A stretch of DNA of 64,000 bases from Geobacteraceae bacterium (GCA_024281055.1 JAMXLF010000071.1:1-64000), one strand, 5' to 3'; shown: positions 4,125 to 44,723, counted from the first letter of the stretch. Translations and numbers: made by a program. Notes: generated by a model not told the origin, from the sequence alone.

Positions 4125-4187
4125 CCTCTATCAAATAGACATCAGCAGCAGCACGGTGGAAAAATCATATTAACGGAGGACGAAAAA

Positions 4188-30089: not shown

Positions 30090-30109
30090 CAGTGTGACTC
30101 CTTCTGAAA

Positions 30110-30714: not shown

Positions 30715-30720
30715 CTACCC

Positions 30721-30748
30721 AAAAGGAGCACTCCTAGTGCTCCTTTTT
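30721..30748. terminator. Bidirectional terminator
   Basis: AAAAGGAGCACT and AGTGCTCCTTTT form a perfect 12-bp stem with a CCT loop and T-rich arms on both strands. It serves the small plus-strand gene and overlaps the stop codon of the minus-strand repressor gene. Confidence 0.85.
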
Positions 30749-31192
30749 CTTTTTCTTGTCCTGAGACAACTTCAATACCTCGGTAACATATGCTTCCTGC
30801 TCTTCAATGTTCATCCCATCAAGCGTACTCTCCATGGCCCTCCTCAAAATCAACTTAAAGGCATCGGTCTGGGTAACGTCTGCCCGACCCAGTTTATCAA
30901 ATTCTTCCTTGATGGATAAAGTTGCAGTTTCCTGAGTCCCCGGATATTTGTCTTCCTTAAACATCTCGCCTTCGCCCTCTTCCCACCAAAGACGATTTAC
31001 GTTGAATGTTGAAATTATTGATTCTTCAACCTGCCATGACAAATTGGCGGTTCCGTTCAATAGCATGGTTATTAAAGACTTGTCCTTACCGATCCTCTTG
31101 GCAAATGCAGAGTTGGTCTTAGTGGTTGAAATAATTAGTAATTTCAACCTTTTCAACTTTTCTTCGACATTTTTAACTTTAGATGTTGACAA
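30734..31192 (-). CDS. Putative phage repressor (HTH, CI-like)
   Basis: A 152-residue product. The N-terminal HTH (SAFAKRIGKDKSLITMLLNG) is followed by ISTFNVNRLWWEEGEG, typical of phage repressors, and an acidic C-terminal region ending in a Lys-rich tail. The apparent start is TTG 31192, with no Shine-Dalgarno site, and the promoter region for the opposite strand begins at once. A leaderless message, as in lambda cI, would explain this. Divergent early genes start at 31285. Confidence 0.7.
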   Translation of the reverse strand: MSTSKVKNVEEKLKRLKLLIISTTKTNSAFAKRIGKDKSLITMLLNGTANLSWQVEESIISTFNVNRLWWEEGEGEMFKEDKYPGTQETATLSIKEEFDKLGRADVTQTDAFKLILRRAMESTLDGMNIEEQEAYVTEVLKLSQDKKKKKEH

Positions 31193-31255
31193 TGTTGAAT
31201 CCAGAGTTTAATATTTTGAATAAAGAGTTACCAAATGTTACCGAAAGTTACAGAA
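31186..31255. promoter_or_regulatory. Early promoter and repeated operator boxes
   Basis: On the plus strand TTGACA (31186-31191), 17-nt spacer, TAATAT (31209-31214). Downstream, three direct repeats with a 10-bp period, GTTACC-AAAT-GTTACC-GAAA-GTTACA (about 31228-31253), lie on one face of the helix. They look like binding sites for the divergent repressor. The -35 touches the repressor start codon. Confidence 0.65.
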
Positions 31256-31284
31256 GACACTAGCAAGAAAATGAGGAAAAAACA

Positions 31285-31470
31285 ATGGAAAACAATGAGT
31301 TTGTAACCCGTAACGAGGCTATGCGGATACTTGGCGTCTGCGGAATGACCATTATTCGCTACCAGAAGGAAGGGCGACTTACCCCGTTTCCAGGTGTGAA
31401 AAAGCGGAGCGTGGTGTTCCGCCGGACAGAGATCGAAGGACTTCTCCCAGGCAATAACAAGGCTGCCTAG
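31285..31470 (+). CDS. Excisionase/AlpA-like HTH protein
   Basis: A 61-residue product with a MerR-type winged HTH: FVTRNEAMRILGVCGMTIIRYQKEG then VVFRRTEIEGLL. It is the first gene of the rightward early operon, where a Cro or excisionase-type protein is expected. Confidence 0.75.
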   Translation: MENNEFVTRNEAMRILGVCGMTIIRYQKEGRLTPFPGVKKRSVVFRRTEIEGLLPGNNKAA

Positions 31471-31494
31471 TTCGTGATACCGGAGGAACCAACC

Positions 31495-31959
31495 ATGAAA
31501 AGCCACAATGCAATGGCGGATGCCATCGCCCACGATGCGGCGGCGATGGCGGAAGAGATGGGCCTGAAACCGGTCACGGTGAGAAAGTGGAAGGAGTCTC
31601 CAGAACAGTCGGGCTCGGTGAATCCCCTGGAGCGGGTTGCTACTGTGATAAGAACGGCCCTGAGCCTGGGGAGGCCACGTTATAAGGCATTGCGGCCTCT
31701 GTATTGGCTCGCGGCGCAGTTCTCTATGATCGTGTTCCCGGCGCCAGAGAGGGGTGTGGACCTGGCCGGGGCTACTAACCGGTTGGCGCATCTCATGCGG
31801 GAGTTCGGCGAGTTCGTGTCTGCCGTGGCCGGGACGCTGGAGCACGGGTCGCTGACTGCTGAGGAGTACACGACGATCCGCGCCAAGGGTGCGGAACTGA
31901 TGCAGGCGCTGGCGCAGTTTCTGAGGCTGTTGGGCACGGGGCAGAGTAATCATCATTGA
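31495..31959 (+). CDS. Phage regulatory protein, CII-like
   Basis: 154 residues from ATG 31495 with GGAGG 8-9 nt upstream. The N-terminal AHDAAAMAEEMGLKPVTVRKWKE segment looks like a helix-turn-helix, followed by a helical domain. Small phage regulators of this build activate lysogeny promoters. The assignment is by shape and position only. Confidence 0.55.
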   Translation: MKSHNAMADAIAHDAAAMAEEMGLKPVTVRKWKESPEQSGSVNPLERVATVIRTALSLGRPRYKALRPLYWLAAQFSMIVFPAPERGVDLAGATNRLAHLMREFGEFVSAVAGTLEHGSLTAEEYTTIRAKGAELMQALAQFLRLLGTGQSNHH

Positions 31960-32113
31960 GAGCCTAGCTTAGATTTTGCTAATTGCAAGGGCAGTTCGTA
32001 GTTTTGATGAACACCTTCGCACAGAAAAGCCGTTTCGCAAAGCGATAAGGAGCGCGGGTGCAGGGTGGGCACTGGGACGAAAGTTTCCTGTGCAACCGGG
32101 GAGGATATGACAT

Positions 32114-32389
32114 TTGGATGATACGGGACGCATAACCAGGAAGGAACGACAAGCGCTGATTCTGACCGGCGGGGAGATCAACCCTGATGCGCTGCTGGAC
32201 GACTGCGAGGTGGCGGCACTCCTCAACTGCTCGGTGCAACAGTTGAGGATCGGCCGTGCCAAGGAGGGGCGGATGCTGCGCGACGGGAAAGAGCATGTGA
32301 AGAATCTGCCGCCCCATCGCGTTCTGTGGGGGCGGTTGGTCCGGTATCGCTACGGTGATCTTCTGGCATGGATGGCAAATGCCGGATAA
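32114..32389 (+). CDS. Small HTH protein of the early operon
   Basis: 91 residues from TTG 32114, supported by GGGGAGGAT 8 nt upstream. The centre has LLDDCEVAALLNCSVQQLRI, an excisionase-like helix-turn-helix, then LPPHRVLWGRLVRYRYGDLLAWM, typical of HTH_17 proteins. The 154 nt before it hold no gene I can support. Confidence 0.6.
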   Translation: MDDTGRITRKERQALILTGGEINPDALLDDCEVAALLNCSVQQLRIGRAKEGRMLRDGKEHVKNLPPHRVLWGRLVRYRYGDLLAWMANAG

Positions 32390-32399
32390 GGGGGGCGCG

Positions 32400-32648
32400 A
32401 TGATCCTGATCGGTGACAAGACGGCGGTGATCGGTGACTACGCGATCCGACTGACCGGGCCATACAGTGTCTGGATTACGCTTATCGAGGGAGGCCGGGC
32501 CGGAGAAGGTGGCCAGTTTTTGCGGGCGGCGATGAACGAGGCCCTGTTCCCGGGGGAACTGCGCGACCTGTTTGCCGGGGTCCCGGATGGGGATACGCAG
32601 GACGCCCTGGTGCACCGACTCGATGCGTTTTATTGCGAGAATTTCTAA
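32400..32648 (+). CDS. Hypothetical phage protein
   Basis: 82 residues from ATG 32400 behind AAGGGGGGC. Beta-rich first half (ILIGDKTAVIGDYAIRLTGPY) and helical C-terminus. No family recognised. Tightly packed with its neighbours. Confidence 0.6.
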   Translation: MILIGDKTAVIGDYAIRLTGPYSVWITLIEGGRAGEGGQFLRAAMNEALFPGELRDLFAGVPDGDTQDALVHRLDAFYCENF

Positions 32649-32662
32649 AAGGGAGGAATTCC

Positions 32663-32899
32663 ATGGGGTTGCGTGATGAGATCGAGGCAGCGAACCGTCG
32701 GGCCGGCATCGGCAGACAGCATGCCTTTGCAAAGAAACAGGTGGTGCGGCAGTCGGATACGCAAATCATCGACATGCTCTGCGCCCGGGCGAACGAAGTG
32801 GGCACCGCTTTCTACAAGGAGGACGCGCCAGCACTCCGAGATGCGGTGAAAAACCTCCTGCGGGCGGTGGTCATCGCCGGGAAAAGGATGCAGCAATGA
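32663..32899 (+). CDS. Hypothetical phage protein
   Basis: 78 residues, mostly helical, from ATG 32663 with a GGGAGGAA site. It overlaps the next start by 4 bp (ATGA). No family recognised. Confidence 0.6.
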   Translation: MGLRDEIEAANRRAGIGRQHAFAKKQVVRQSDTQIIDMLCARANEVGTAFYKEDAPALRDAVKNLLRAVVIAGKRMQQ

Positions 32900-33327
32900 A
32901 TAACGACGGGAAAAGTCCATCTTATCAGTCGTTTTTAGAGACGGTGCCGACGCTGACCGATGCACTAAAGAGGACCTACCTGCTGGGAGGATTCGAGGCG
33001 AAGGAAATGGCGCACATGATGGGGCACCGCTACGCAGATTTCAACCGGTACTTCAACCCGAATGATGCCCGCTATCTTCCCACGGACGACCACCTAAAAC
33101 TGATGGTCAAGAGCCGCAACCATTTCGCTCTGGACTGGCAGGCGCGGCAATTGGGGCTCTGTCTCTATCCTCTGGAAACAATGAATATCCTGGACGAGAT
33201 CAGGCGCGCGCTTTCGTCCGAAGGTCGGACGGTGCGCTTTGCGTTGCGGCAGGAGGGGCCCGGACTTGCCGGCGTGAATGAGGCGCTATGGGAACGGCTG
33301 TTTCTGCTGGCCGGAAAGGGACGGTGA
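32896..33327 (+). CDS. Hypothetical phage protein
   Basis: 143 residues. The helical segment LLGGFEAKEMAHMMGHRYAD could be a helix-turn-helix, and LKLMVKSRNHFALDWQA follows, so a DNA-binding regulatory role is conceivable. Coupled to both neighbours by overlaps. Confidence 0.55.
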   Translation: MNNDGKSPSYQSFLETVPTLTDALKRTYLLGGFEAKEMAHMMGHRYADFNRYFNPNDARYLPTDDHLKLMVKSRNHFALDWQARQLGLCLYPLETMNILDEIRRALSSEGRTVRFALRQEGPGLAGVNEALWERLFLLAGKGR

Positions 33328-33593
33328 TGACCATGGGAAGGGAACGGGTATCGTTGCCGGCGTGGCTGGCACTGGCGGTGGTGTTCGGCGGCATGGCGGT
33401 GGCGGGGACGATGGAATGCGACGATTACCAGAAGGCTCAGGAGTTCCGCCAGGAAACCCGCGTGGTGACGGATGACCGGGGGGAACCGCAGCTGGTGGAC
33501 GCGCGGACCTGCGACCGGCAGGTACTGGAGATGTACGGGTATGGGGAGGGCCAGGGTAATGGCAAAAAGACGGCCGAGACACGCGGGAAATAA
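33327..33593 (+). CDS. Small exported or membrane-anchored phage protein
   Basis: 88 residues from ATG 33327, overlapping the previous stop. It has an N-terminal hydrophobic helix (LPAWLALAVVFGGMAVAG) and then a polar domain with two cysteines. Function unknown. Confidence 0.5.
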   Translation: MTMGRERVSLPAWLALAVVFGGMAVAGTMECDDYQKAQEFRQETRVVTDDRGEPQLVDARTCDRQVLEMYGYGEGQGNGKKTAETRGK

Positions 33594-33768
33594 TCAGCAG
33601 ATTCGGCTCCGGTGCGATTGGTGCGGGATTGCCATGGATTGCGCCGGTAAGGTCGCATACAAACGGAAGGTTCTTGCCAGCATAGCGGACGATAGCCCAT
33701 GGGGGGTACCTGGTTGCCCCGATCACGTGGAGATTCCATTCCGGGGGCTGGCGGGGTGCGCGGCTTAA
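33559..33768 (+). CDS. Small Cys-rich phage protein
   Basis: 69 residues from ATG 33559, overlapping the previous gene by 35 bp in another frame. A basic start (AKRRPRHAG) and RLRCDWCGIAMDC suggest a zinc-binding knuckle, with further Cys near the C-terminus. Its stop codon is also the first triplet of an interspersed repeat. Confidence 0.5.
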   Translation: MAKRRPRHAGNNQQIRLRCDWCGIAMDCAGKVAYKRKVLASIADDSPWGVPGCPDHVEIPFRGLAGCAA

Positions 33769-33807
33769 CGGCAGTTTTGAGTTCTTAGTTTTGAGTTTTG
33801 AGCTAAA
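33766..33807 (+). repeat. Interspersed 42-bp repeat, copy 1
   Basis: It starts with the TAA stop of the preceding gene and reads TAACGGCAGTTTTGAGTT, then more TTTTGAG units. A 42-bp near-copy is at 52833-52874, also starting exactly at a stop codon. The remaining 118 nt to the next gene show no frame of note. Confidence 0.75.
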
Positions 33808-33925
33808 GAAATCCGGTCTGAGCGGCCATGAAAAACTCTGAGGGCCTCCACCACCGCACGTATGCCGCGACGGGTGGAAACAGGCGCGAAGGTCAGACCG
33901 TAAATTACAACCGAGGAGGTAGAAC

Positions 33926-34375
33926 GTGGAACAGGAAATTGTCTTGAAACTCAACGTGGGGCAGGTGAACGCCATACTTACGGCGCTCAGCGAACAGCCC
34001 TACAAGTCGGCGGCGCCGATCATTCACAGCATCCAGGCGCAGGCCCAGCCGCAGCTCAACCCGGCACCGGCAGATGAGGGCACAAAAGCGCCGGCAGGGG
34101 TGGGTGCGGTCGTGTCGGAAATCCCGGAACTGCCGCTGTACCAGTGCCACAAGCAGGTGCGGGCCGCAAAGATCATTTCTACCGGGTCGGGACGGGTGCC
34201 GGGAGAGGTCGAGCTGTTTTTGGATGGCGAGGTGATGGTCACCGTTGATGTCGCCTGGGTTGCCCGCAATCCGCAGCTCGAAAGCGGCGGCTACTTCGTC
34301 CACTACCAGGAAGGGGACGACTATACGACCTATTCCCCGGCTGGCCCGTTTGAGAGCGGCTATACAAAGCTGTAA
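33926..34375 (+). CDS. Hypothetical phage protein
   Basis: 149 residues from GTG 33926 with GGAGGTAG 9 nt upstream. The first 45 residues (VLKLNVGQVNAILTALSEQP) resemble the small phage domain that counts as an all-helical oligomerisation module. The rest is a beta-rich domain. No function recognised. Confidence 0.6.
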   Translation: MEQEIVLKLNVGQVNAILTALSEQPYKSAAPIIHSIQAQAQPQLNPAPADEGTKAPAGVGAVVSEIPELPLYQCHKQVRAAKIISTGSGRVPGEVELFLDGEVMVTVDVAWVARNPQLESGGYFVHYQEGDDYTTYSPAGPFESGYTKL

Positions 34376-34410
34376 CGATTCTGACCAAGAGTCAGTGAGG
34401 AGGTGAAGGG

Positions 34411-34776
34411 ATGTTTACGGAAGATGGAACAGTAACGCTCGACACACTGAAAGGTGGAGCCGCACTTCAGCTGTTCCAGGAGGAACTGGACAAGGTGGTG
34501 GCGAACATCATGGACCCGAACACCGATGCCGAGGCGGTGCGGGAGGCGGTGATAAAGGTCCGAATCAAGCCGGACAAGGACAGGTCGGGGGGGGCGGTGC
34601 AGATTATCCCGTCGTCCAAACTGGCGCCGGCCGTGGCGCTGGGCACCCGGATGTTCTTCGGCAAGAAGGGTACGCGATTCATGGCGTTCGAGCACAACCC
34701 GCAGCAACTGACTTTTGCCATGGAGCGCGGCGATGTTTCTGTGGTGCAGGGCGGCAAATCAAGCAGCGGGGAATAA
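34411..34776 (+). CDS. Hypothetical phage protein
   Basis: 121 residues from ATG 34411 (GGAGGTGAAGGG upstream). A mixed alpha/beta protein with VVANIMDPNTDAEAVREAVI and later VALGTRMFFGKKGTRF. Its neighbour at 34798 probably works with it. No known domain recognised. Confidence 0.6.
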   Translation: MFTEDGTVTLDTLKGGAALQLFQEELDKVVANIMDPNTDAEAVREAVIKVRIKPDKDRSGGAVQIIPSSKLAPAVALGTRMFFGKKGTRFMAFEHNPQQLTFAMERGDVSVVQGGKSSSGE

Positions 34777-34797
34777 CCCCGGGAAAGGGAGGGAGTT

Positions 34798-35553
34798 TTG
34801 TTAGAAAAGGCGATCAACAGGATCCTCAGCCTGGCAGACGTGAAAACACTGTCGTTCGGGGGAAGGGATTACACCACGGCTGCGCTCCAGCCAGTGAAAG
34901 AACCGACGCTGCCGCTCCTGGAAGTGAACACGCTCAAGGGTCTCGTGGACTATCTCAAGAGTGGTCTCGACCTCAAGGAGATTGGCAACTATGTCAACGT
35001 AATCGATGGCGGAGAAGTCCCGGAAGATTACCTCCGGGTGGCGCTACACATCGTGTCTCCACTCCAGGTGCTGGCGTTTCTGCCGGTAGAAGGACCCTGG
35101 AAGAAAAGGGTCCCGGTCGTCCAGGCAACATGGAACCGGCGCACATTTCCTTTTGATGATTTTCTTTCCCAGGAGAATTTCGTCATCAAACTGCTTGCGA
35201 CGGTGCAGGAGGGAGCTGATACCGACCTGGAAAAGGTGCTTGAATTCGCCGGCAAGATCGTCTGCGAGGACAAGGCCGAGATTACTGATAATGGCGTCTC
35301 TCAAGCCGTGACAGTACAGCGCGGGGTGCGTCAGGAGTCGGGGAGGGTCCTGCCACTGCGGCCCAGTTTAAAACCTGTACGAACCTTTACGGAGGTTGAG
35401 CAGCCGGTGAGCACGTTCGTATTCCGGATGCGGTCGGAACCTGTCGCACTGGCCCTTTTCGAGGCGGACATGGGGGCGTGGGAGATGGTGGCGAAGGAGA
35501 ACATCAAGAAGTACCTGGAGACGGAGCTGCCGGGCGTGCCGGTGTTCATGTAA
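34798..35553 (+). CDS. Conserved-looking phage protein of unknown function
   Basis: 251 residues from TTG 34798 behind GGGAGGGAG. The N-terminus has LSFGGRDYTTAALQPV, the middle DYLRVALHIVSPLQVLAF and a segment TWNRRTFPFDDFLSQENF, and the C-terminus RSEPVALALFEADMGAWE. The shape recalls the YfdQ/DUF2303-type phage proteins, but I cannot confirm it. Confidence 0.6.
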   Translation: MLEKAINRILSLADVKTLSFGGRDYTTAALQPVKEPTLPLLEVNTLKGLVDYLKSGLDLKEIGNYVNVIDGGEVPEDYLRVALHIVSPLQVLAFLPVEGPWKKRVPVVQATWNRRTFPFDDFLSQENFVIKLLATVQEGADTDLEKVLEFAGKIVCEDKAEITDNGVSQAVTVQRGVRQESGRVLPLRPSLKPVRTFTEVEQPVSTFVFRMRSEPVALALFEADMGAWEMVAKENIKKYLETELPGVPVFM

Positions 35554-35601
35554 ATCAAATCCCCTTCGCGGGGGCATTTCACGGTTGAAAGGAGTAGGAA
35601 G

Positions 35602-35976
35602 ATGACGTGGAGCGCAAGAGTAGTAAGGAGTGATGGGACGTTGCCGGATGGTGATTATACCGCTTGTCTGAGCTGCGAACATGGCGGCAAAGTCTGGCCG
35701 CCACCCTGTTTCATCAATCGGGCAGTCGGCGCGGTGGGCAACCTCCTGACATCGATCGACACCGGCGCCGATGGCCACATGGCGAGCGGCCAGGCTGACC
35801 TCAGATGCAACGGTTACACGGAGGCCAAGCCCGAGCCGATCAGCGAGACCGCGGAAGCCGGTGCAGTGGAAACCGACGTTGACCAGCAGCCAGGAGCAGC
35901 TACAGAGGAAAAACCGGCAGCGGAACAGGTTGAAAAGCCGGCAGAAGAAAAGGCGACCTTTGGGGCACCCGTTTAG
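35602..35976 (+). CDS. Hypothetical phage protein with acidic tail
   Basis: 124 residues. The first 75 hold four Cys (ACLSCEHG, PPCFIN, RCNG), possibly a metal site. The last 50 are a Glu/Ala/Pro-rich low-complexity tail (EEKPAAEQVEKPAEEK). AAAGGAGT lies upstream. Confidence 0.55.
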   Translation: MTWSARVVRSDGTLPDGDYTACLSCEHGGKVWPPPCFINRAVGAVGNLLTSIDTGADGHMASGQADLRCNGYTEAKPEPISETAEAGAVETDVDQQPGAATEEKPAAEQVEKPAEEKATFGAPV

Positions 35977-36050
35977 CCGTTGAAGTCCGGGGCGAAGGTC
36001 CGCCTTCGCCCTCTTCTTGAGCGGTTGAACTTGTGATGCGGGAGGGTCCG

Positions 36051-36305
36051 ATGTTTCCGAAGACGCGGTTTATTGACACGAATGGGGTGTGGCGGCAGTT
36101 CTTCCATCTTCATTCGAAGATGTGGGGAGTCTTTTGGGCGCTGGTGTGGCGCGACTGGCGACATGCGGCCCGGAGACTGGCGGACTTGCAGCAATCGGCG
36201 GATACGGAGCGCCATGTCATTCAACGCCTGCACAAGGTGGATGTGGCCATGGAGCGGGCGCTGGTGATCCAGCGGAACAAGTTGCGGGGATACTACCAGG
36301 CGTAA
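36051..36305 (+). CDS. Small helical phage protein
   Basis: 84 residues from ATG 36051 (CGGGAGGG upstream). Aromatic N-terminal half (WRQFFHLHSKMWGVFWALVW) and a charged helix. It lies just before the retroelement, and a role in it is not indicated. Confidence 0.5.
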   Translation: MFPKTRFIDTNGVWRQFFHLHSKMWGVFWALVWRDWRHAARRLADLQQSADTERHVIQRLHKVDVAMERALVIQRNKLRGYYQA

Positions 36306-36345
36306 TTTATGTGGCAGGGCCATTTTAAAAGAAAGGGGAAGATGT

Positions 36346-36960
36346 ATGAAGCAGATTGCAACTGTAGTGGACAACAATCAACCGGGCGGCCTGATTGTTG
36401 TCGAAACGGAGCCTAAAGTAACACTACCAGTAGGAACCAGGCTCTTTCTTGCCGAACCCTTCGCAGAGCTCGGGTCTCCTCTCGGAGGCGGGTTCTTCGC
36501 CGGAGAGTTCGTTCTTCAGGGGGAACGCTATGCCTTGGTGGTAGCGCCGAAGACCGAAGGTGAAAAGATGGAATTGCAGTTCAAAAACCGCAATACCGCC
36601 GACGGCACCGACAGCGATGAGGACGGTCTGGCCAACAGCGCCCGCATCAACGACGCCAATCACCCGGCAGTGCAGTTTTGCCGGTCACTCAGGATCGGCG
36701 GTTACGATGACTGGTACCTGCCGTCACGAGATGAACTGGCTATGTTATGGCGCAACCTCGGCCCCAGGCGGAAGAACGTTCCGGAGCTGTTCCGCGAAGG
36801 CGCAACGGAGTCCTTTGAGACGGACTGGTACTGGTCCAGTACAGAAACCGCCTCCTACTCCGACGTTGCCTGGATGGTGGGTTTCGACTATGGCTACCAG
36901 GACAACTACGGTAAGGACAACTATTGTGGAGTCAGGGCGGTCCGCAGATTAAAAATTTAA
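36346..36960 (+). CDS. DGR target protein 1 (DUF1566/C-type-lectin-like variable protein)
   Basis: 204 residues. An N-terminal extension of about 40 residues precedes the block GGGFFAGEFVLQGERYALVV and an acidic Ca-binding-like stretch (DGTDSDEDGLANSARINDAN). The C-terminal DUF1566-type domain has DDWYLPSRDELAMLW, YWSSTE and the closing CGVRAVRRLKI. The last 34 codons are the variable repeat VR1, whose residues at template-adenine positions are D, V, G, Y and others. Such domains display diversified ligand-binding residues on a stable fold. No signal peptide is seen. It may be a virion component or act in the lysogen. Confidence 0.85.
   Translation: MKQIATVVDNNQPGGLIVVETEPKVTLPVGTRLFLAEPFAELGSPLGGGFFAGEFVLQGERYALVVAPKTEGEKMELQFKNRNTADGTDSDEDGLANSARINDANHPAVQFCRSLRIGGYDDWYLPSRDELAMLWRNLGPRRKNVPELFREGATESFETDWYWSSTETASYSDVAWMVGFDYGYQDNYGKDNYCGVRAVRRLKI
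36849..36951 (+). repeat. DGR variable repeat VR1
   Basis: 103 bp aligned without gaps to the template repeat at 38066-38168. It differs at 14 positions, all adenines in the template (9 to G, 5 to T). The first 13 and last 27 bases are identical to TR, and the 3' identical block carries the probable mutagenic-homology initiation site. It ends 9 bp before the end of the target 1 gene. Confidence 0.95.
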
Positions 36961-36985
36961 CTCTTTACCAATTGAGGAGGGAATC

Positions 36986-37513
36986 GTGACAAAGCAACAG
37001 ATAGAGATCCCCGCGATCGGCCAGCCCTTTGCCGGTGGTTTTTTCGCTGGCGAGTTCATCCTGGAAGGGGAGCGTTACGCTCTGGTGGTGGCGTCGAAGG
37101 CGGAAGGCGAGAAGCTGGATCTGCGGTACAAGAAAACCGACCGCAACATCTCAGACAGTGCCGACAGCGATGACGACGGCCTGGCAAACAGCGAGCGCAT
37201 CAACGACGCCAACCACCCGGCGGCACAGTTTTGTCGGTCGCTTCTGATCTGCGGTTACGATGACTGGTATCTGCCGTCTCGGGATGAACTGGCCATGCTA
37301 TGGCGTAACCTCGGCCCCAGACGGAAGAACGTTCCGGAGTTGTTTCGCGAAGGGGGAGCGGAGGCGTTCGCCCTGGCGTGGTACTGGTCCAGTACAGAAA
37401 CCGCCTCCTACTCCAACTATGCCTGGGTGGTGGATTTCGACTTTGGCGGCCAGAACGACGTCTATAAGGACGACGGTTGTGGAGTCAGGGCGGTCCGCAG
37501 ATTAAAAATTTAA
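36986..37513 (+). CDS. DGR target protein 2 (paralogue of target 1)
   Basis: 175 residues from GTG 36986, with GAGGAGGG upstream. Very similar to target 1 from GGFFAGEF onwards (same SDDDGLANSERINDANH, DDWYLPSRDELAMLW and YWSSTE blocks), but it lacks the first 30 residues of target 1. The variable C-terminus ends in CGVRAVRRLKI and carries a different residue set (Y, V, D, F, G). Two targets served by one template suggest duplication inside the cassette. Confidence 0.85.
   Translation: MTKQQIEIPAIGQPFAGGFFAGEFILEGERYALVVASKAEGEKLDLRYKKTDRNISDSADSDDDGLANSERINDANHPAAQFCRSLLICGYDDWYLPSRDELAMLWRNLGPRRKNVPELFREGGAEAFALAWYWSSTETASYSNYAWVVDFDFGGQNDVYKDDGCGVRAVRRLKI
37402..37504 (+). repeat. DGR variable repeat VR2
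   Basis: 103 bp, ungapped against TR. 16 differences, all at template adenines (11 to G, 5 to T), including the A of the ATG codon (Met to Val). The same invariant 5' and 3' blocks as in VR1. Confidence 0.95.
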
Positions 37514-37538
37514 CTATTTAACAATTAAGGTAACAATC

Positions 37539-37892
37539 ATGGCCCTGGCTTCGACACTCCCGATCTATCGCGTCACTTACGAGCTTTTGCAGGTGGTCAC
37601 CCGCATAACGAAAGACATGCCGCGAGACTACAAGCAGTCCCTCGGCAACAAGGTGCGCGAGGAGTGTGTAGAGCTGGTAGTTCTGATTTACCGGGCTAAT
37701 TGCTCCCGCGACAAACGGCACCACCTGGAGGAACTGCAAGAACGCCTTCAGGTGGTGATGCTACTCCTCCGGTTGTCCAAGGACATGAAGCTGATCAGCA
37801 CCGGGCAATTTGCCCAGACAGTTGAGCTCACTGACCAGATCGGGAAGCAGTCGTCCGGTTGGCTCAAGTTTGCATCGTCGCCTGCTGCATAG
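37539..37892 (+). CDS. avd: Avd-like DGR accessory protein (four-helix bundle)
   Basis: 117 residues, almost entirely helical: LPIYRVTYELLQVVTRITKD, DYKQSLGNKVREECVELVVL, a helix through LEELQERLQVVMLLLRLSKD and the SGWLKF end. This is the pattern of Avd, the basic pentameric barrel that binds the DGR reverse transcriptase and template RNA and is needed for mutagenic cDNA synthesis. It lies between the second target and TR, as in the Bordetella phage system. Confidence 0.9.
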   Translation: MALASTLPIYRVTYELLQVVTRITKDMPRDYKQSLGNKVREECVELVVLIYRANCSRDKRHHLEELQERLQVVMLLLRLSKDMKLISTGQFAQTVELTDQIGKQSSGWLKFASSPAA

Positions 37893-38065
37893 CCGTTACG
37901 GCGGTTATGCCCGTGCGAAAATAATCTGGTCGCGCCCCTGGGGAATAACCCCACGGTGATGCGCCGACAGCGAAACCGGCGGGCAGGTGTCCCGCAAGGT
38001 CGTGGCGCAGTTTCATGACGGATCGGCCCGACCTTCCGCCATGCGACGTGAACAGCACGACATTA
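37893..38065 (+). ncRNA. Structured leader of the DGR template RNA (inferred)
   Basis: Between avd and TR there is no gene but several hairpins: TGGGG/CCCCA (37939-37943, 37949-37953) and GCGGG/CCCGC (37979-37983, 37991-37995). DGR template RNAs need flanking avd-proximal and rt-proximal sequence for priming and Avd-RT binding. This stretch is in the right place. Confidence 0.5.
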
Positions 38066-38168
38066 CGCCTCCTACTCCAACAATGCCTGGATGGTGAATT
38101 TCAACAATGGCAACCAGAACAACAACAATAAGAACAACAATTGTGGAGTCAGGGCGGTCCGCAGATTA
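38066..38168 (+). repeat. DGR template repeat TR
   Basis: 103 bp with 36 adenines. In the target frame it reads mostly as Asn: 13 AAY codons grouped as NN, N, NN, N, NNNN and NNN. Because the third base is a pyrimidine, adenine substitution cannot create stops there. It is the invariant parent for VR1 and VR2. It is not part of a functional target gene, since the frame lacks the upstream DUF1566 domain. Confidence 0.95.
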
Positions 38169-39303
38169 TATCGATGCCGATTTGACGGTGAACGAGCTCT
38201 TGTGTGCCTACTACGACTGCCGCAGGCACAAGCGCAATACCATGAACGCCTTGAGGTTCGAGGCGAACCTGGAGCGCAATATCATGGCGTTGTACCGGGA
38301 GTTGATGGACGGCAGCTATCGCCCTGGTACTTCCATCTGTTTCGTGGTGACCAGACCGAAACCCCGCGAGGTCTGGGCGGCCGATTTCCGGGACCGGGTT
38401 GTCCATCACCTGCTCTACAACCGGATAGCCGACCGGTTCCATCGCTCCTTCATCGCCGACAGCTGCGCCTGCATTCCCGGGCGCGGTACTCTGTACGGTG
38501 CGACGCGCCTGGAGCACAAAATCAGGAGCATCACCCGGAACTGGTCGCGGGACGCCTATTATCTGAAGCTGGATCTGGCAAACTTCTTTGTCAGCATCGA
38601 CAAGAACATTCTTCACGGCCTGCTGGCACGGAAAATCACGGAACCGTGGGTCATGTGGCTTACCGAGACAGTTCTCTTTCATGACCCACGGGAGAACGTC
38701 CGCATCAAGGGGACGGCGGAAATGCTGGACCTGATCCCGCCACACAAGAGTCTGTTCAATCAGCCTTCTCACCTGGGCCTTCCCATCGGCAACCTGAGCA
38801 GTCAGTTCTTTGCCAACGTCTATCTCAACCCGCTCGATCAGCACGTGAAGCACCGCATCGGTGCCCGGCATTACATCCGCTACGTGGATGACATGGTGCT
38901 GCTGCACGAGTCGCCTCAATGGCTGAACCATGCCGCGGTGGAGATCGGTGATTTTGTGGCGGAGCGTCTCGCTCTCGCTCTGAACCCTCGCAAGACGGTC
39001 ATTCAGCCCATAGAGCGAGGGGTCGATTTCGTCGGGCAGGTTATAAAGCCCTGGCGCCGCGTGCTCAGACGTACGACTTTTGAAAACGCGATAACGGCTG
39101 CTTCCAGTAAAACCGGTGACGATTTGATGCGAAGCGCCAACAGTTATCTCGGATTGTTGCGGCAAGCGGACCATAGCCACAGTGACAGGGCACGGCTGGT
39201 GCGGATCACACTCCGCAAGGGACATTGTGTGGATGGCAGGTTCACGAAGATTTTCAGAAAACGGGCGGATGTCCCGAAGTTTGAAAAGTTTCTCTATTTT
39301 TGA
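38107..39303 (+). CDS. DGR reverse transcriptase
   Basis: Up to 398 residues. Motifs: the Y-D-C-RRHKRNT N-terminal region, SICFVVTRPKPREVWAADFR, motif A KLDLANFF (Asp 156), motif B LPIGNLSSQFF with the DGR-type [I/V/L]GxxxSQ (227-233), catalytic YVDD (259-262), and GVDFVGQVIKP. This separates it from group II intron and retron enzymes. It makes error-prone cDNA at adenines of the template RNA. The start is uncertain: ATG 38107 lies inside TR, while GTG 38143 or GTG 38188 just before the conserved NELLCAYY are alternatives. No clear Shine-Dalgarno site is present at any of them. Confidence 0.95.
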   Translation: MATRTTTIRTTIVESGRSADYIDADLTVNELLCAYYDCRRHKRNTMNALRFEANLERNIMALYRELMDGSYRPGTSICFVVTRPKPREVWAADFRDRVVHHLLYNRIADRFHRSFIADSCACIPGRGTLYGATRLEHKIRSITRNWSRDAYYLKLDLANFFVSIDKNILHGLLARKITEPWVMWLTETVLFHDPRENVRIKGTAEMLDLIPPHKSLFNQPSHLGLPIGNLSSQFFANVYLNPLDQHVKHRIGARHYIRYVDDMVLLHESPQWLNHAAVEIGDFVAERLALALNPRKTVIQPIERGVDFVGQVIKPWRRVLRRTTFENAITAASSKTGDDLMRSANSYLGLLRQADHSHSDRARLVRITLRKGHCVDGRFTKIFRKRADVPKFEKFLYF

Positions 39304-39324
39304 TTGTATTTCTGGAGGGGATTG

Positions 39325-39768
39325 ATGACGCCTGCGATTCTGAAGTACCGCGACCGGTTTCGCCGGTTTCCTCAGATGGGGTTCAATTTCGATGAGCTCA
39401 CCATCGATAACTTCGCCGGCGGAGGTGGTGCCTCGACCGGCATCGAGGCGGCCTTGGGACGGCCAGTCGATATCGCTGTCAATCACGACCCGGTAGCCGT
39501 GGCGTACATCCGGACACTGAAAGACAAATGGGGACTCAGGGAAAATAACGTGCTGACACTGCAGCTTATGGAGCAGTTTCCGTGCGGCATGTTGCCCTTG
39601 CGGGAAAATTTCTACGCCTGGCTTAAGGTGTTCGGCGAGACGTATAGCCGGAACCGCAACGGGCGAAAACAGGGGGTCGTGTCCGGGTGGGTCGAGGTGG
39701 ATCGGTACGGACATCGGCCGGAGAGGTTTTATCCTTTTGTGCCGGGAAGCAGCACGGCACAACAATAA
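39325..39768 (+). CDS. Fragment of a DNA cytosine methyltransferase joined to an unrelated C-terminus
   Basis: 147 residues from ATG 39325 with GGAGGGG upstream. Residues about 28-55 carry the N-terminal methyltransferase signature (TIDNFAGGGGASTGIEAALG and the VNHDP that follows), including the SAM-binding glycine loop. After NHDP the resemblance ends: no PC catalytic motif is present, and a different sequence (MEQFPCGMLPL...) follows. It cannot methylate cytosine as it stands. An internal deletion that kept the frame is the simplest view. Confidence 0.65.
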   Translation: MTPAILKYRDRFRRFPQMGFNFDELTIDNFAGGGGASTGIEAALGRPVDIAVNHDPVAVAYIRTLKDKWGLRENNVLTLQLMEQFPCGMLPLRENFYAWLKVFGETYSRNRNGRKQGVVSGWVEVDRYGHRPERFYPFVPGSSTAQQ

Positions 39769-39780
39769 ACCGGAGGCAGT

Positions 39781-40140
39781 ATGCAACTCAGAGACGATCA
39801 ACTCCAGGCCTTGCGGCACATGCTGGGCATCGACAAGCCAGAGGAGAAAGAGCCGACGTCGTACCGTAATTATTACTGCGCCTGTCTCGGCGATCCGTTG
39901 ATGAATGGGTTGCGCCACCTTGGCTTTGTCCGTCTGTACAGGGTTACTGAAAAATATGAGTGGTTTTTGGCGACTGAGACAGGTATTGCCGCGGCGTTCG
40001 CAAGCCACAAGCGCATCTGCTGGCCGAAGTCAAAGCGGATGTATTCGAAATTTCTGGACCTGAAAGACTGCTGGCCAGACCTCACCTTTAAACAGTTTCT
40101 GACGGACCCTGAACTGGCGGAAACGCGAAAAGCTGTATAA
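39781..40140 (+). CDS. Hypothetical phage protein
   Basis: 119 residues from ATG 39781 with GGAGGCAGT upstream. The middle part (PTSYRNYYCACLGDPLMNGL...GFVRLYRVTEKYEWFLATE) looks like a compact alpha/beta fold. I do not recognise a family. Confidence 0.6.
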   Translation: MQLRDDQLQALRHMLGIDKPEEKEPTSYRNYYCACLGDPLMNGLRHLGFVRLYRVTEKYEWFLATETGIAAAFASHKRICWPKSKRMYSKFLDLKDCWPDLTFKQFLTDPELAETRKAV

Positions 40141-40244
40141 CGGTTGGAGGGTGTGGGGCATTAGCCCCCACCACCCGATTGTTATGTCACGAATCACCCG
40201 CTGTCGGAATTCCGGCATCGGAACAAAATCGAGGAGATAAGAAC

Positions 40245-40655
40245 ATGAACAAAGCACAGATTGACAAAATGGTTGACCGTTTCCTTTGCTGGAAATTGCC
40301 GGAGGATTTTGCCCCCGACTGCGGTATCAGTTTCGACGGCAGAAAAGACGACGAGTGGAACAAAAATAAGACATGGCCTGTCGGTACGAACCTGCTGACG
40401 GCAGAGCAAGCGCGGCAGATGTTCCTGCACGTTACCACTGAATGTGCCGACGGACTGCAACCGCATCAGCAGCGTGTTGTCACCGAAAAAGTTGAATTGG
40501 ATGAAAAAGCCAAAGCACTGAGCGAGTTCATTGGGCACAGCCCTATTTTTGAAACGCTTGATCCGGCAGAGCAGGAACGGCTGAAAGAGCAGAACGAAAT
40601 CATGTGGCAATACTCCGAGATTCTCGGCGCTCGTATCGCTGCATTCGCAGAGTGA
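40245..40655 (+). CDS. Hypothetical phage protein
   Basis: 136 residues from ATG 40245 (GAGGAGATAAG upstream). The sequence FLCWKLPEDFAPDCGISFDG and WPVGTNLLTAEQARQMFLHV is a pattern seen in small phage-encoded proteins. The rest is helical. Between this gene and its neighbours are small GC-rich inverted repeats (about 40149-40176 and 40671-40688). Confidence 0.65.
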   Translation: MNKAQIDKMVDRFLCWKLPEDFAPDCGISFDGRKDDEWNKNKTWPVGTNLLTAEQARQMFLHVTTECADGLQPHQQRVVTEKVELDEKAKALSEFIGHSPIFETLDPAEQERLKEQNEIMWQYSEILGARIAAFAE

Positions 40656-40719
40656 CATAACATATCTTATCCCGCCACAATGGCGGTATAACCAACCAAG
40701 CTTTAATGGAGGTGCGACC

Positions 40720-41745
40720 ATGAAAGCAGGGGAAATCATCGAGAAAATGCGGAACACCATGAGGATGCAACGGAAGAGCGGGAAAAGCGTCAAGGCTTAC
40801 GTAGGTTGGATAAAGAAGTTCTTTGCCTTCGTCGCAGCCCGGCCGGCCGGCGAATCATGGGAGGATAAGGTAATTGCCTTTCTCACCAAGCTGGCGGTGA
40901 AAGACCACGTTTCCGCCTCCACTCAAAAACAGGCCCTTTGCTCGATTATCTACCTGTTTAAGCGAGTCGTAAAAAAGGAGCTTGGCGACATTTCCTCCTT
41001 TGTCCGCTCCAGTCTCCCCTCCCGGATCCCGGTTGTATTCAGTCGCCAGGAGGTGCGGGCCATACTTGACCAGCTAAAAGGGCTCGGCGAATTATGGGGC
41101 ATGCTTATGTATGGCTGCGGGATGCGGCTCGGTGAGGTCTGCGCCCTGCGCGTCAAAGATCTCGACTTCGACCGCCGCCAGATCACCATCTGGGACGGCA
41201 AGGGGATGAAATCGCGCATCGTGCCCATGCCGGAAGATGTAGTAATCCCCATGCAGAAACATATTCGCAACCTGCGGGCAGTCTGGGAACGCTATGCTCG
41301 GCAGGGGATACCGGTTTCCGTCCCCGATTCTCTCGGCCGCAAATACCCGAAGATACCATTCGAATGGGGTTGGTTCTGGGTTTTTCCCGCTTCCGGTCCG
41401 GTAGTGAAGAGCGACAAGCACTGGCAAGACCCGGCCTGGATCGGGAAGCTGTGGCACATCCATGATTCAGCCATTCAGAAGCAGATCGGCCGCGCCATCC
41501 ATGCCGCCGGAATCCTGAAAAAGGCTGGCTGCCATACCTTCCGGCATTCCTTTGCTACCCACTGGCTTGAAAGTGCCGGGAGCGCCCAGGAAGTAGCGAT
41601 CATCCGCCTGCAACGCCTGCTCGGCCATAGCACCCCGAAAACTACCATGATCTATCTTCATTGCATCAAGGCGCAATCGGACGTGCCGAGCCCGTTGGAT
41701 ACCCTTAAAGAAGAGGTCAAAGAAGAGTTCCGGAGGGCCGCTTGA
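40720..41745 (+). CDS. Tyrosine recombinase of the integron-integrase (IntI) type
   Basis: 341 residues. An N-terminal SAM-like core-binding domain (about 1-100) is followed by a catalytic domain with Arg in MYGCGMRLGEVCALRVKDLD, Lys in DGKGMKSRIV, HTFRHSFATHWL, LLGHSTPKTTMIYLH and the tyrosine nucleophile in MIYLH. The IntI-specific insert is visible as SLGRKYPKIPFEWGWFWVFP. A short extra stretch (SAGSAQEVAIIR) precedes LLGH. No attC cassette array is nearby. It may be the phage's own integrase despite lying 11 kb from the left end. Confidence 0.88.
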   Translation: MKAGEIIEKMRNTMRMQRKSGKSVKAYVGWIKKFFAFVAARPAGESWEDKVIAFLTKLAVKDHVSASTQKQALCSIIYLFKRVVKKELGDISSFVRSSLPSRIPVVFSRQEVRAILDQLKGLGELWGMLMYGCGMRLGEVCALRVKDLDFDRRQITIWDGKGMKSRIVPMPEDVVIPMQKHIRNLRAVWERYARQGIPVSVPDSLGRKYPKIPFEWGWFWVFPASGPVVKSDKHWQDPAWIGKLWHIHDSAIQKQIGRAIHAAGILKKAGCHTFRHSFATHWLESAGSAQEVAIIRLQRLLGHSTPKTTMIYLHCIKAQSDVPSPLDTLKEEVKEEFRRAA

Positions 41746-42518
41746 TCTTTACCTGTCCCTGCTGCCATGCCCGCTATTCCCTCGATGCCGCCAACCAGGA
41801 CGAAGCGGCCCGCGAGCTGCTCGCCCTGCGAGGCGAGATGCCGCCGCGGCTGTGGCATCCGATGATTGCCTATCTGGGCCTGTTCCGTTCCGAGTCCCGG
41901 GCGCTTGCCTGGGACCGGGCGCTGAAAATTTGCAGAGAAGTACTGCAACTCGGCGCGGATCCGGATCGGCTGGAAACGGCGCTCTGTGAGACGGTGGAAT
42001 CACTGAGGCTAAAGGGCGGCAAGCCGCTCAAGAATCATAACTATCTGAAGCGGGTGCTGGAGAACAGCGCGGGTTCAAGGTTTGAGGTTCAAGGTTCAAC
42101 GTTGAACACCGAACATCGAACATCGAACGGCGGAAAGCGCACGCAGGCGCTGAACGCAGTGCTTGAATGGGGCTCTGCCTCATGGCTGCACCAGCGCATC
42201 AGCCTCGGCTTTGCCGCCCTGATCGCCCGCTCGCTCAAGGGCCAGCCCGGGGCGGACACGATTGTCCTTTGTGCCGATACCTGGCATTTATCGCTCAAGA
42301 AGATTTTGACCATCGAGGAGATCGACGCCGAGCGCTGCATGAAGGCGTTCGACCGGCTACTGACCGAGGTGACCGAGTGGCCGCAGCCGAAGCGGCTGAT
42401 AGAGCTTCTGCCACGTCGCCCCGAGCGGGCGAAGCTCCGCGCGCCGGAACCCAGCGCGGAGGAACATGCGGATAACCTGGAGCGGATGCGGAAGCTGCGG
42501 GAAGAAAGCGGACTATGA
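41742..42518 (+). CDS. Hypothetical phage protein with an N-terminal zinc finger
   Basis: 258 residues from TTG 41742, overlapping the recombinase stop (GGAGGG upstream). It begins IFTCPCCHARYSLDA, a CxxC-type zinc knuckle. It is helical after that, with LKNHNYLKRVLEN resembling the C-terminal part of replication-initiator/helicase-loader proteins. Residues about 111-128 are encoded by a repeated DNA insert (see the repeat entry). The function is probably in DNA metabolism but is not established. Confidence 0.55.
   Translation: MIFTCPCCHARYSLDAANQDEAARELLALRGEMPPRLWHPMIAYLGLFRSESRALAWDRALKICREVLQLGADPDRLETALCETVESLRLKGGKPLKNHNYLKRVLENSAGSRFEVQGSTLNTEHRTSNGGKRTQALNAVLEWGSASWLHQRISLGFAALIARSLKGQPGADTIVLCADTWHLSLKKILTIEEIDAERCMKAFDRLLTEVTEWPQPKRLIELLPRRPERAKLRAPEPSAEEHADNLERMRKLREESGL
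42072..42127 (+). repeat. In-frame short tandem repeat insert in the 41742 gene
   Basis: Units GGTTCAAGG, GAGGTTCAAGG, TTCAACGTTGAAC, then CGAACAT twice, with a TTCAACGTTGAA palindrome. It encodes a low-complexity linker and keeps the frame. Similar GTTCAA/TTTGAG-type clusters occur as intergenic repeats at 33766 and 52833. Confidence 0.6.
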
Positions 42519-42829
42519 CCCAGCAAGAACTTGCCGAAGAAAAACTGAAGGGTATGCTTAAAGCGGCGGAGCTGGCGGTGAAAGCCTCGTACTGCACGGG
42601 CGAGGTCTGTCGGATCCTCGGCATCCACGAGCGGACTTTCTGGCGGCTGCTGGCCAACTACGAGCGGGATGAGCGGGGCGAGCTGCGCCGCCCCGACTGC
42701 CTCGACTCCTTCACCCTGGCGCAGAACCGCAGGGTCACCTTCGTCGAGCTGGTAGCGTTCCTGGTGCGCAATAACACCTACACCCGCCAATACCAGGTGC
42801 ATCCGGACCAGATGGCGCTTTTTACTTGA
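42515..42829 (+). CDS. HTH-domain phage protein
   Basis: 104 residues with ATGA overlap with the previous gene. The segment YCTGEVCRILGIHERTFWRLL is a helix-turn-helix, and VTFVELVAFLVRNNTY follows. It is the last gene before a strong terminator and may control late transcription. Confidence 0.6.
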   Translation: MTQQELAEEKLKGMLKAAELAVKASYCTGEVCRILGIHERTFWRLLANYERDERGELRRPDCLDSFTLAQNRRVTFVELVAFLVRNNTYTRQYQVHPDQMALFT

Positions 42830-42935
42830 CCCCCTTCGACGTTTCGTAGTACAGAGGCAAAATCGCCCCACCTCCATCCTTTGAAATTCACCCTGCAATA
42901 TCCCCCCAAACCCCTGACAAACCGGAACAAACCCC

Positions 42936-42958
42936 AGCGCCGAAAGGCGCTTTTTTTG
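42936..42958 (+). terminator. Rho-independent terminator ending the early/DGR block
   Basis: AGCGCC-GAAA-GGCGCT with a T7 run, a textbook GNRA-loop terminator. Confidence 0.92.
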
Positions 42959-43211
42959 TCATTATCCCCCCAGATCATGCAGCACCTCCAATGACATCGG
43001 CCGGCGGCCTCGCACCCCGCCGGCCACCTTCCTGTTCACCTGGCGAGGAGGTGATCTCCATGCACACTCGATAACCCACGGAAGGGCGGCACGGTCCAGA
43101 CTCCGCGATCCTGGCCGGGATAAGAGATTTCCCACCGCCCACGGCTCCTTCGGCCACTGACGCCGGACGATGGGGGGAGGCGCAAGCCTCCCCCAGCATC
43201 ATGAGGCTCGC
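42959..43211 (+). promoter_or_regulatory. Late-region leader with a perfect Shine-Dalgarno site and a stable hairpin
   Basis: Between 42830 and 43211 I see no full gene. GAGGAGGTGATCTCC (about 43046-43060), nearly the whole anti-Shine-Dalgarno complement, precedes a five-codon frame (MHTR, stop). GGGGGAGGC-GCAA-GCCTCCCCC (43173-43194) is a 9-bp GC stem with a GNRA loop, 17 nt before the endolysin start. It may carry the late promoter and an attenuating or stabilising structure. Confidence 0.45.
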
Positions 43212-43844
43212 ATGCGAAAGCTGATTTTTGCTCTGGTTTTTGCCGTTTCTTTTTCTTCGGTCTCTTTCGCCGCCGATTGCGGCATTGCTCTCTTCGAGCC
43301 GAGCTACGGCATATTCGCCCATGAAGGCGGCTGGCAGAACAGCAGAAACGACGGCGGCAACTGGTCTTCCGGCAAGGTGGGAGTCGGGCATCTTTGTGGC
43401 GGCACCAAATACGGGCTGGCCTGTGCCTACCATCCGAATCTAGACATTCGCAATCTGACCAAAGATGCGGCAGCGCACGAATACCAACAGAACGAATGCC
43501 GGGCAATCCGGATCAAGGATCTTCTGGGCCAGCGCGATCCAACCTTGCTGCTCGATCTGGCCGTCAACATGGGAAGCGGCACGGCGAATCGGATGTTCCA
43601 TAAGGCCCGCAACGCCTGCAAGGGGGAGAAATCAGATCCGGACGTGTCGATCTCTACCGAGCTGAGTGATGACGATGTCGCCTGGTACAACGCTTTTACC
43701 GCAGAGTTCAATCACCGCAAGCAATTCCTTTTCGCTCTGGCCCTTGCCGGCATCGATCGCTACACCGATATCGTCGAATCCAATCCGAAGAAAGCCCAAT
43801 GGCTGCTCGGCTGGATCGTCCGCGTCAACCCGCTCAATGACTGA
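43212..43844 (+). CDS. Endolysin, GH108-like muramidase with signal sequence
   Basis: 210 residues from ATG 43212. The N-terminal hydrophobic export signal (RKLIFALVFAVSFSSVSFA) is followed by a lysozyme-like domain. FAHEGGW supplies the catalytic Glu38, and the pattern continues GGTKYGLACAYHP, DAAAHEYQQNEC and LLLDLAVNMGSGTANRM, as in the GH108 N-acetylmuramidase family. It should cleave peptidoglycan at the end of the lytic cycle. The signal may be cleaved or act as a signal-anchor. The holin follows 22 nt later. Confidence 0.85.
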   Translation: MRKLIFALVFAVSFSSVSFAADCGIALFEPSYGIFAHEGGWQNSRNDGGNWSSGKVGVGHLCGGTKYGLACAYHPNLDIRNLTKDAAAHEYQQNECRAIRIKDLLGQRDPTLLLDLAVNMGSGTANRMFHKARNACKGEKSDPDVSISTELSDDDVAWYNAFTAEFNHRKQFLFALALAGIDRYTDIVESNPKKAQWLLGWIVRVNPLND

Positions 43845-43866
43845 GCCAACCATAGGAGGTATCACG

Positions 43867-44379
43867 ATGAAACGTCTTCAGCTTCTTGTTAACACGCTTA
43901 TCTTGTTTGCCCTCGCCCTGGTCTTTACCATCACGGCCTTCGCCGCTGACGCCGCCCCGGCCGCATCGAGCGGTATCATGGCCGGCTTTCTGAACGGCAC
44001 GGTCTTTCCGCTGGTCGGCGCACTGCTCCTCGGCCTGCTCACCTATGGTCTGAGACTCTTTGCCACCAAGTACAAGCTGCAGATCCTCGCCGACAATAAC
44101 GACATGCTTATGAAGCTGGCCGCCCAGGGCATCGCCTTTGCCGAGGAAAAGGCCGCCACCTACGCCGACACCAAGGTGCCGCTTAACGGTAATGACAAGA
44201 TGACCCACGCGGTATCGTACATCCTCAAGGCCATGCCGAAACTGACCCCCGAGCAGGCCCAGGACGCCGTGCATGCCGTTCTCGCCATAATCCCGGGTAC
44301 GGGTGCCACCGGCGCGAATTCCTTTGTCCCGGCCGCACCGGCTGCCCCGGCTGCACCGGCCACGCCTCCGGCGGTCTGA
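43867..44379 (+). CDS. Holin of the LLH type
   Basis: 170 residues from ATG 43867 (GGAGGTATC upstream). An N-terminal hydrophobic segment or signal (LNLILFALALVFTITAFA-like) and a second transmembrane helix (FPLVGALLLGLLTYGLRLF) precede YKLQILADNNDMLMKLAAQG and a long helix, the layout of the LLH holin family. The C-terminus is an Ala/Pro-rich tail. It should time lysis in the inner membrane. Confidence 0.75.
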   Translation: MKRLQLLVNTLILFALALVFTITAFAADAAPAASSGIMAGFLNGTVFPLVGALLLGLLTYGLRLFATKYKLQILADNNDMLMKLAAQGIAFAEEKAATYADTKVPLNGNDKMTHAVSYILKAMPKLTPEQAQDAVHAVLAIIPGTGATGANSFVPAAPAAPAAPATPPAV

Positions 44380-44380
44380 C

Positions 44381-44602
44381 ATGGCGGCCGGGGCTTTGTC
44401 ATCCATTCTGGCGATCCTGGCCTACCTTGTCCCGTTCATCGTCGACGCACTGAAGAAGTACCAGGTCACCACCCAGGGGGGGAATCACGATGCCAACATC
44501 CAGGAATTTCGCAAGAGCCTTGCTCAGAATGATCGTGTCGGCATTGCTGCTCGCCTCGCTGATCAGCACGACCGGGTGCGCGCGGCGCTACGTGGCCGTT
44601 GA
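44381..44602 (+). CDS. Small membrane protein, possible inner-membrane spanin
   Basis: 73 residues starting directly after the holin stop. One N-terminal transmembrane helix (LSSILAILAYLVPFIVDAL) is followed by a polar helix. A lipoprotein gene starts inside it in another frame and runs past its end, the arrangement of Rz/Rz1 pairs. The periplasmic part is short for an i-spanin. Confidence 0.5.
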   Translation: MAAGALSSILAILAYLVPFIVDALKKYQVTTQGGNHDANIQEFRKSLAQNDRVGIAARLADQHDRVRAALRGR

Positions 44603-44702
44603 CGCAGGCGCCCCGGCCAATGCTACCCAGGGCGACCTGGACCGCTGCTTTCAGGACAATGAACTGCTGCTGCAACGTCTGGAATCGTGCGGCTGTAAAT
44701 AA
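44490..44702 (+). CDS. Small lipoprotein, possible outer-membrane spanin (Rz1-like)
   Basis: 70 residues in a different frame from the overlapping gene 44381-44602. The signal sequence ends in a lipobox, LLASLISTTGC, with the acylated Cys near residue 30. The mature part is short with two further Cys near the end. Position and overlap suggest an o-spanin, though the usual Pro-rich stretch is missing. Confidence 0.55.
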   Translation: MPTSRNFARALLRMIVSALLLASLISTTGCARRYVAVDAGAPANATQGDLDRCFQDNELLLQRLESCGCK

Positions 44703-44723
44703 CATGCAATGACGGAGGACTTC

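Follow-up and report, generated by a model that had tools for sequence, protein, structure and literature searches.

How is the template RNA of a diversity-generating retroelement (DGR) organised when the structured RNA beside the template repeat (TR) lies 5' of it, and not 3' as in the BPP-1 system? The question is raised by a stretch of 64,000 nucleotides from a Geobacteraceae bacterium (GCA_024281055.1 JAMXLF010000071.1:1-64000, hereafter the window), which carries at positions 36346-39303 a DGR with, in this order on the plus strand, target gene 1, target gene 2, avd (accessory variability determinant), TR and reverse transcriptase (RT). As far as sequence can tell, the locus is certainly a complete phage-borne DGR, with two C-type-lectin targets, an Avd and a DGR-class RT; among DGRs it is a new but unremarkable member of a common group. 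An earlier note on this DNA had described it as a complete DGR with two targets, and each defining feature that it named was tested and found. To this can be added an RNA situated between avd and the TR, RT-15 (Rfam RF03018), a long-range helix between RT-15 and the TR, and the immunity to mutagenesis of adenines that precede a guanine (AG immunity). We consider it very probable that this is a phage DGR in which RT-15 is placed 5' of the TR and joined to it by that helix (J/J'), and in which AG adenines are spared.

The repeats of the system form a single direct-repeat family of 103 nt that aligns without gaps, consisting of the TR (38066-38168, with 36 adenines) and two variable repeats, VR1 in target 1 (36849-36951) and VR2 in target 2 (37402-37504), all on the plus strand. 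There are 14 differences from the TR in VR1 and 16 in VR2, and all 30 (20 A>G, 10 A>T, no A>C) fall on TR adenines, for which the chance probabilities are 5.5e-8 and 3.3e-9 respectively; the alignment described in the earlier note agrees with ours base for base. That note had proposed that the DGR reading be judged by VR differences in other isolates and by the affiliation of the RT, and on both the outcome favoured it. Translated in the VR frame, the TR reads ASYSNNAWMVNFNNGNQNNNNKNNNCGVRAVRRL, which has the usual AAC/AAT-rich design. The 3' end shared by VR and TR occurs in just three copies in the whole 4.44-Mb genome, and a genome-wide pattern search found no remote VRs elsewhere in the host genome. 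The missing A>C class was considered as a peculiarity of the window and set aside as weak, the changes across the family being to G in 50%, T in 34% and C in 16% of cases, with 10% C among close relatives.

In the window, 173 nt separates avd from the TR, and this gap is spanned by a full-length match to RT-15 (37876-38067, plus strand, model positions 1-192; 144.8 bits against a gathering score of 82), whose start overlaps the final codons of avd and whose end reaches the first bases of the TR. The Rfam structure comprises a 5' hairpin (37878-37918, plus strand), with covarying pairs 37881-37915, 37878-37918 and 37887-37910, and a branched domain of closing helix and arms (37930-38060, plus strand), with covarying pairs 37933-38057, 37941-37951, 37963-38006 and 38015-38042. 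RT-15 scores above cut-off in 38 of the 40 genomes that have the window's RT family. An independent scan of 399 Burkholderiales genomes, for which RT-15 alone was the query, yielded eight new matches above cut-off, all eight between avd and an RT; hence the association of RT-15 with DGRs is not an artefact of searching by RT. Where a TR was mapped beside a new match (four loci on the plus strand, the only strand searched), it began at most 4 nt from the end of RT-15 in every case. Four matches below the cut-off (L185, L224-L226) were accompanied by no DGR and are probably due to chance. In Rfam, RT-15 is known just as an RNA named after the neighbouring RT; here, it ends at a DGR template repeat and pairs with the 3' end of that repeat, outside the Rfam model. 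A literature search that excluded the original RT-15 paper found no paper mentioning RT-15 together with DGRs, and priority is uncertain. An orphan RNA that Rfam lists by number alone gains a concrete partner, the DGR template repeat.

What would hold the two together is a helix between J (ATAATCTG, 37921-37928, plus strand), a strand that is unpaired in the Rfam model and ends in near-invariant AUCUGG, and J' (CAGATTAT, 38162-38169, plus strand), which consists of the TR 3' end and one further base. The near-invariant core of J, AUCUG, is complementary to CAGAU, the TR 3' end carries a near-invariant GUCCGCAGAU, and the helix in the window extends to eight pairs. When the window sequence alone was folded without constraint, J and J' paired with a probability of 0.87-0.96. 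For comparison, 160 related loci were fetched, making 161 with the window included. Of 134 loci, 93% have the second extension pair, against 52% with shuffled partners, and it is mostly T-A, G-C or C-G. Counted on the RT tree, pair 37922-38168 shows 14 double changes on the same branch where 1.5 are expected (p ~1e-14), 12 of them compensatory, and the next two pairs give p-values of 7e-6 and 1e-5. Even the core is exchanged in a compensated manner in L081 (ATCCG/CGGAT) and, among the held-out loci, in L223 (ACCTG/CAGGT). The held-out loci have on average 2.8 of three positions paired, against 1.5 when shuffled; in L230 the strands ttttgaTTCTGG and CAGCAtcgaa pair except for one mismatch, and in L219 no motif pair was found. 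There is good support for RT-15 as a module on the 5' side of the template RNA that a helix ties to the TR 3' end; since J base-pairs with that end, RT-15 and the TR form one folded RNA.

Several points weigh against this interpretation. RNAalifold, applied to the family alignment, returned no J/J' helix and paired TCTGGT with ACCAGA in the middle of the TR, so that the RNA may also fold in another way. CAGAT, the J' core, belongs to the stretch that VR and TR have in common and might have been retained for reasons of protein sequence or homing; only the flanking pairs and the rare core swaps are informative. Detection of TR and VR required that mismatches within a run be at A only, which biases the family statistics towards A, although the rule introduces no bias towards any 3' neighbour of adenine. 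Two VRs alone do not prove that the copy in the window is currently active; and what is said here of RT-15 binding by RT and Avd, of priming, of activity and of the function of the helix is inferred from sequence. The mid-TR partner ACCAGA was rejected as the principal one: in L081 the corresponding mid-TR sequence is AACAGC, while the J core ATCCG matches CGGAT at the 3' end, and because J core and TR 3' end have changed together there, the 3'-end partner is preferred. A more radical objection is that the covariation arises from shared ancestry or alignment error and that there is no helix. The silence of RNAalifold and the near-invariance of the core speak for this, but we regard it as highly improbable, given that changes were counted per branch on the RT tree and that shifted-partner controls yielded far fewer compensatory changes. 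When 45,150 position pairs across leader, TR and flank were scanned blind, moreover, 37922-38168 ranked third (p 8e-16), among the hairpin pairs of RT-15 itself, and the pairing is supported by loci outside the discovery set.

The second property that sets the window's clade apart concerns which adenines are mutated. Counts were taken over 294 non-redundant TR/VR pairs, on adenines within the span bounded by the outermost mutated sites, and since they run over related sequences the p-values that follow are guides only. In the RT-15 clade, 67% of NAA, 51% of NAC and 52% of NAT adenines are mutated (58% of all those other than NAG), against 2.7% of NAG (n=783). In the window the figures are 0 of 10 NAG and 30 of 60 others (Fisher p 0.004), and in the held-out loci 1 of 56 and 259 of 461. 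By contrast, BPP-1-like loci show mutation at 14 of 24 NAG adenines, in each case A>G (p 7e-15 against the RT-15 clade); in VP58.5-like loci, 12 of 56 are mutated (p 3e-7). The accessible part of a laboratory study of the BPP-1 RT reports the lowest guanosine misincorporation at NAG (0.08%) and states no general block (PMC12875486).

Could rare mutation at NAG reflect selection on the target proteins for conserved Gln, Glu and Lys, and not a property of the RT? VRs do come under selection, and the majority of NAG sites fall in CAG codons for a Gln that hardly varies (Q156 in target 2). Yet the same residues are freely mutated at the second base when encoded by the synonymous codon: 67% for CAA against 0.7% for CAG, 72% for GAA against 1.9% for GAG, and 73% for AAA against 2.0% for AAG. 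The sparing of NAG holds at codon positions 1, 2 and 3 (10.8, 1.6 and 4.3% mutated), and at third positions the 4.3% before G compares with 33-61% otherwise; BPP-1-like loci, with similar lectin targets, mutate NAG. Selection is accordingly a distinctly unlikely explanation, and AG immunity as a property of the clade is well supported. It follows from AG sparing that CAG and AAG codons in the variable region would encode built-in constant residues, and that Gln156 and Lys161 of target 2 would be written as fixed residues among variable ones. If true, the AG block gives phages a means of encoding fixed residues (as CAG, GAG or AAG) within a hypervariable region, and such a clade-specific exception to adenine mutagenesis could explain the constant structural residues found inside it.

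Together, these features suggest a mechanism. RT and Avd would bind RT-15, and the J/J' helix would position the TR 3' end so that cDNA can be primed from the adjacent conserved strand, in the manner of the BPP-1 3' spacer; priming from RT-15 is plausible. The resulting cDNA, with errors at A but none at AG, would replace VR1 or VR2, for which the unmutated, GC-rich 3' end may serve as the anchor. We think it reasonably likely that DGR template RNAs exist in two permuted forms, such that in this large clade of proteobacterial phages RT-15, 5' of the TR, takes over the BPP-1 spacer's part in recruiting RT-Avd and in priming by clamping the TR 3' end with its helix, cDNA then being started from the 5' side, and that the RT of this clade has an intrinsic AG block. 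From the helix come predictions, down to single base pairs, of the way in which reverse transcription may begin in a second kind of DGR. Laboratory directed evolution would gain a further choice of system in DGRs that combine a 5' RNA module with an AG rule.

A more conventional account would make this an ordinary DGR of the BPP-1 type, with its 3' spacer RNA hidden in the RT coding sequence and RT-15 serving as an expression leader for RT or avd. In BPP-1 the spacer between TR and brt recruits RT-Avd, and an adenine within it primes the cDNA (PMC12875486). This spacer corresponds to Rfam Phage_DGR (RF03022), which has no match at gathering score in window positions 30000-46000. An effect of RT-15 on RT translation is conceivable, there being no clear ribosome-binding site at any candidate RT start (38107-38188 region); an expression leader, however, has no need to end at the TR or to covary with its 3' end, as RT-15 does. 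Nor is synonymous-codon conservation raised at the 5' end of the RT (observed/expected 1.02-1.13, the same as in the rest of the gene), which gives no hint of a 3' spacer concealed there. We judge this account unlikely and retain the reading in which RT-15 is itself part of the template RNA.

The protein-coding components, which lie where the earlier note placed them, are those of a typical DGR. Target gene 1 (36346-36960, plus strand, 204 aa) is preceded by a ribosome-binding site, AAAGGGGAAG, and belongs to the C-type-lectin-like Lcl_C/DUF1566 family (Pfam PF07603, 2.5e-14), as does target gene 2 (36986-37513, plus strand, 175 aa; Pfam 6.2e-14); Pfam and PHROG agree with the earlier assignment of both as DUF1566-like. 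DUF1566 is the commonest named DGR target domain (PMC6642488). Structure prediction, which the earlier note had suggested for the targets, was run for target 2 and gave a C-type-lectin domain (AlphaFold, pLDDT 93.8), whose closest solved structure is the C-terminal domain of Legionella Lcl (Foldseek 7.8e-7; VIA-align to 8q4e, Z 14.1, rmsd 2.5 over 124 residues). Family, model and fold match place the VRs at the 3' ends of target genes with a C-type-lectin fold. Sequence searches of the PDB with target 1 and with Avd found nothing. The targets are most likely binding proteins for the host or a cell surface, but they are encoded in the early region of the phage, not among tail genes.

The gene first noticed as an Avd-like helical bundle is avd (37539-37892, plus strand, 117 aa), being bAvd by Pfam (PF22296, 5.3e-18) and 'Avd protein of DGR' by PHROG (1.3e-32). 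The conserved part of the RT (38188-39303, plus strand; PHROG 2e-113, Pfam RVT_1) contains the DGR-defining [IVL]GxxxSQ motif, as IGNLSSQ, and YVDD (YxDD). Its best solved relative by sequence is 8ub7 (3.3e-40), which we take to be the BPP-1 DGR RT, and the DGR class is assigned from the motifs and this match. An RT of this kind is present in a single copy in the host genome. The RT reading frame is open back into the TR, with its first ATG at 38107. In nearly all relatives the RT frame is likewise open through the TR (97% for at least 75 nt, and 60% for at least 300 nt, that is, through RT-15), other frames upstream of the RT core being less open, and deposited RT starts in relatives vary by more than 250 nt.

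Phage genes lie 3' of the DGR, namely an integrase (40720-41745), endolysin, terminase, portal, head morphogenesis and head protease genes, and the genes upstream of ~29 kb are bacterial (TilS, FtsH, phosphoglucomutase, aspartokinase-like, LeuA-like and Ham1). From these flanks we deduce an integrated tailed phage, in accordance with the prophage proposed earlier; the DGR occupies its early or integrase region, away from the tail genes. Directly 3' of the RT is an open reading frame of 154 aa (39304-39768) in which there is a DNA methyltransferase N-terminal motif alone (residues 31-72), and which looks truncated or fused to another sequence. Just 5' of the integrase, a small protein (40179-40655) has a C-terminal crAss001_48-type domain (Pfam 4.3e-19). 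A phage protein of 1137 aa (54161-57574) has a weak match, below gathering score, to Mtd_N, the major tropism determinant N-terminal domain (4.3e-5); the genome-wide pattern search found no VR copy in it.

Among the 161 loci, 149 have a detected TR beside the RT; these carry between one and five VRs, two being the commonest number, and the majority of relatives have two targets. About 150 relatives are laid out like the DGR of the window. The isolated phages Magia (Burkholderia), Cruim01 (Pseudomonas) and vB_Sb_QDWS (Shewanella) have RTs 59-64% identical to that of the window, share its layout and its J/J' helix, and carry the DGR in a comparable position, close to integrase or methylase genes, although phage and host differ. 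The Magia annotation includes a potential DGR target and an Avd-like protein and that of Cruim01 includes RT-15, but none of the three records ties RT-15 to the template repeat. Elsewhere, five loci (L301, L302 and L303, which are Bacteroides phage F2-like, L098 and L102) combine an avd-TR gap of ~130-208 nt with a short TR-RT gap; no RT-15 match was found in those scanned, and they possibly hold further 5'-module DGR RNAs. In L331, the Rfam RNA RT-14 (RF02921, L331:4211-4379) lies directly 3' of a DGR TR (4092-4206), which suggests that RT-14, too, is a DGR RNA, one of 3'-spacer type.

An arrangement comparable to that of RT-15 is found in retrons (msr-msd, with an a1/a2 closing helix), in which structured RNA lies 5' of the template and a helix returns the template 3' end to the RNA. 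The window is no retron: its RT matches the DGR RT 8ub7 best, retron RNA families are without a match in 30000-46000, Avd is present and the product would go to VRs, so that the likeness is one of arrangement only. With BPP-1 (mtd-avd-TR-brt), the window shares gene order, Avd, RT class, diversification at A only and a C-type-lectin target, but Mtd is encoded among tail genes, and the window has small targets situated in the early region. The layouts differ further. In BPP-1, avd abuts the TR and a 144-nt spacer separates TR and brt; median avd-TR and TR-RT gaps are 2.5 and 152 nt in BPP-1-like loci, and the gaps are 12 and 197 nt in VP58.5-like loci, against 167 and 26 nt in the RT-15 family, with 19 nt from the TR to the RT core in the window. 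Within the BPP-1 spacer, the strand AGGTG (spacer nt 48-52) is complementary to CACCT at the TR 3' end; GUC comes next, as it does after AUCUG in RT-15. The BPP-1 priming nucleotide is, we assume, A56, four nt after AGGTG; a priming site near 37929-37932 by analogy was not adopted, as it remains a guess and 37931 lies in a covarying helix. Both modules read hairpin, pairing strand and structured domain, with the TR on opposite sides, 5' of the structured RNA in BPP-1 and 3' of it in the window, and in this mirror-image arrangement the template RNA of the RT-15 family may be read as a permuted DGR RNA.

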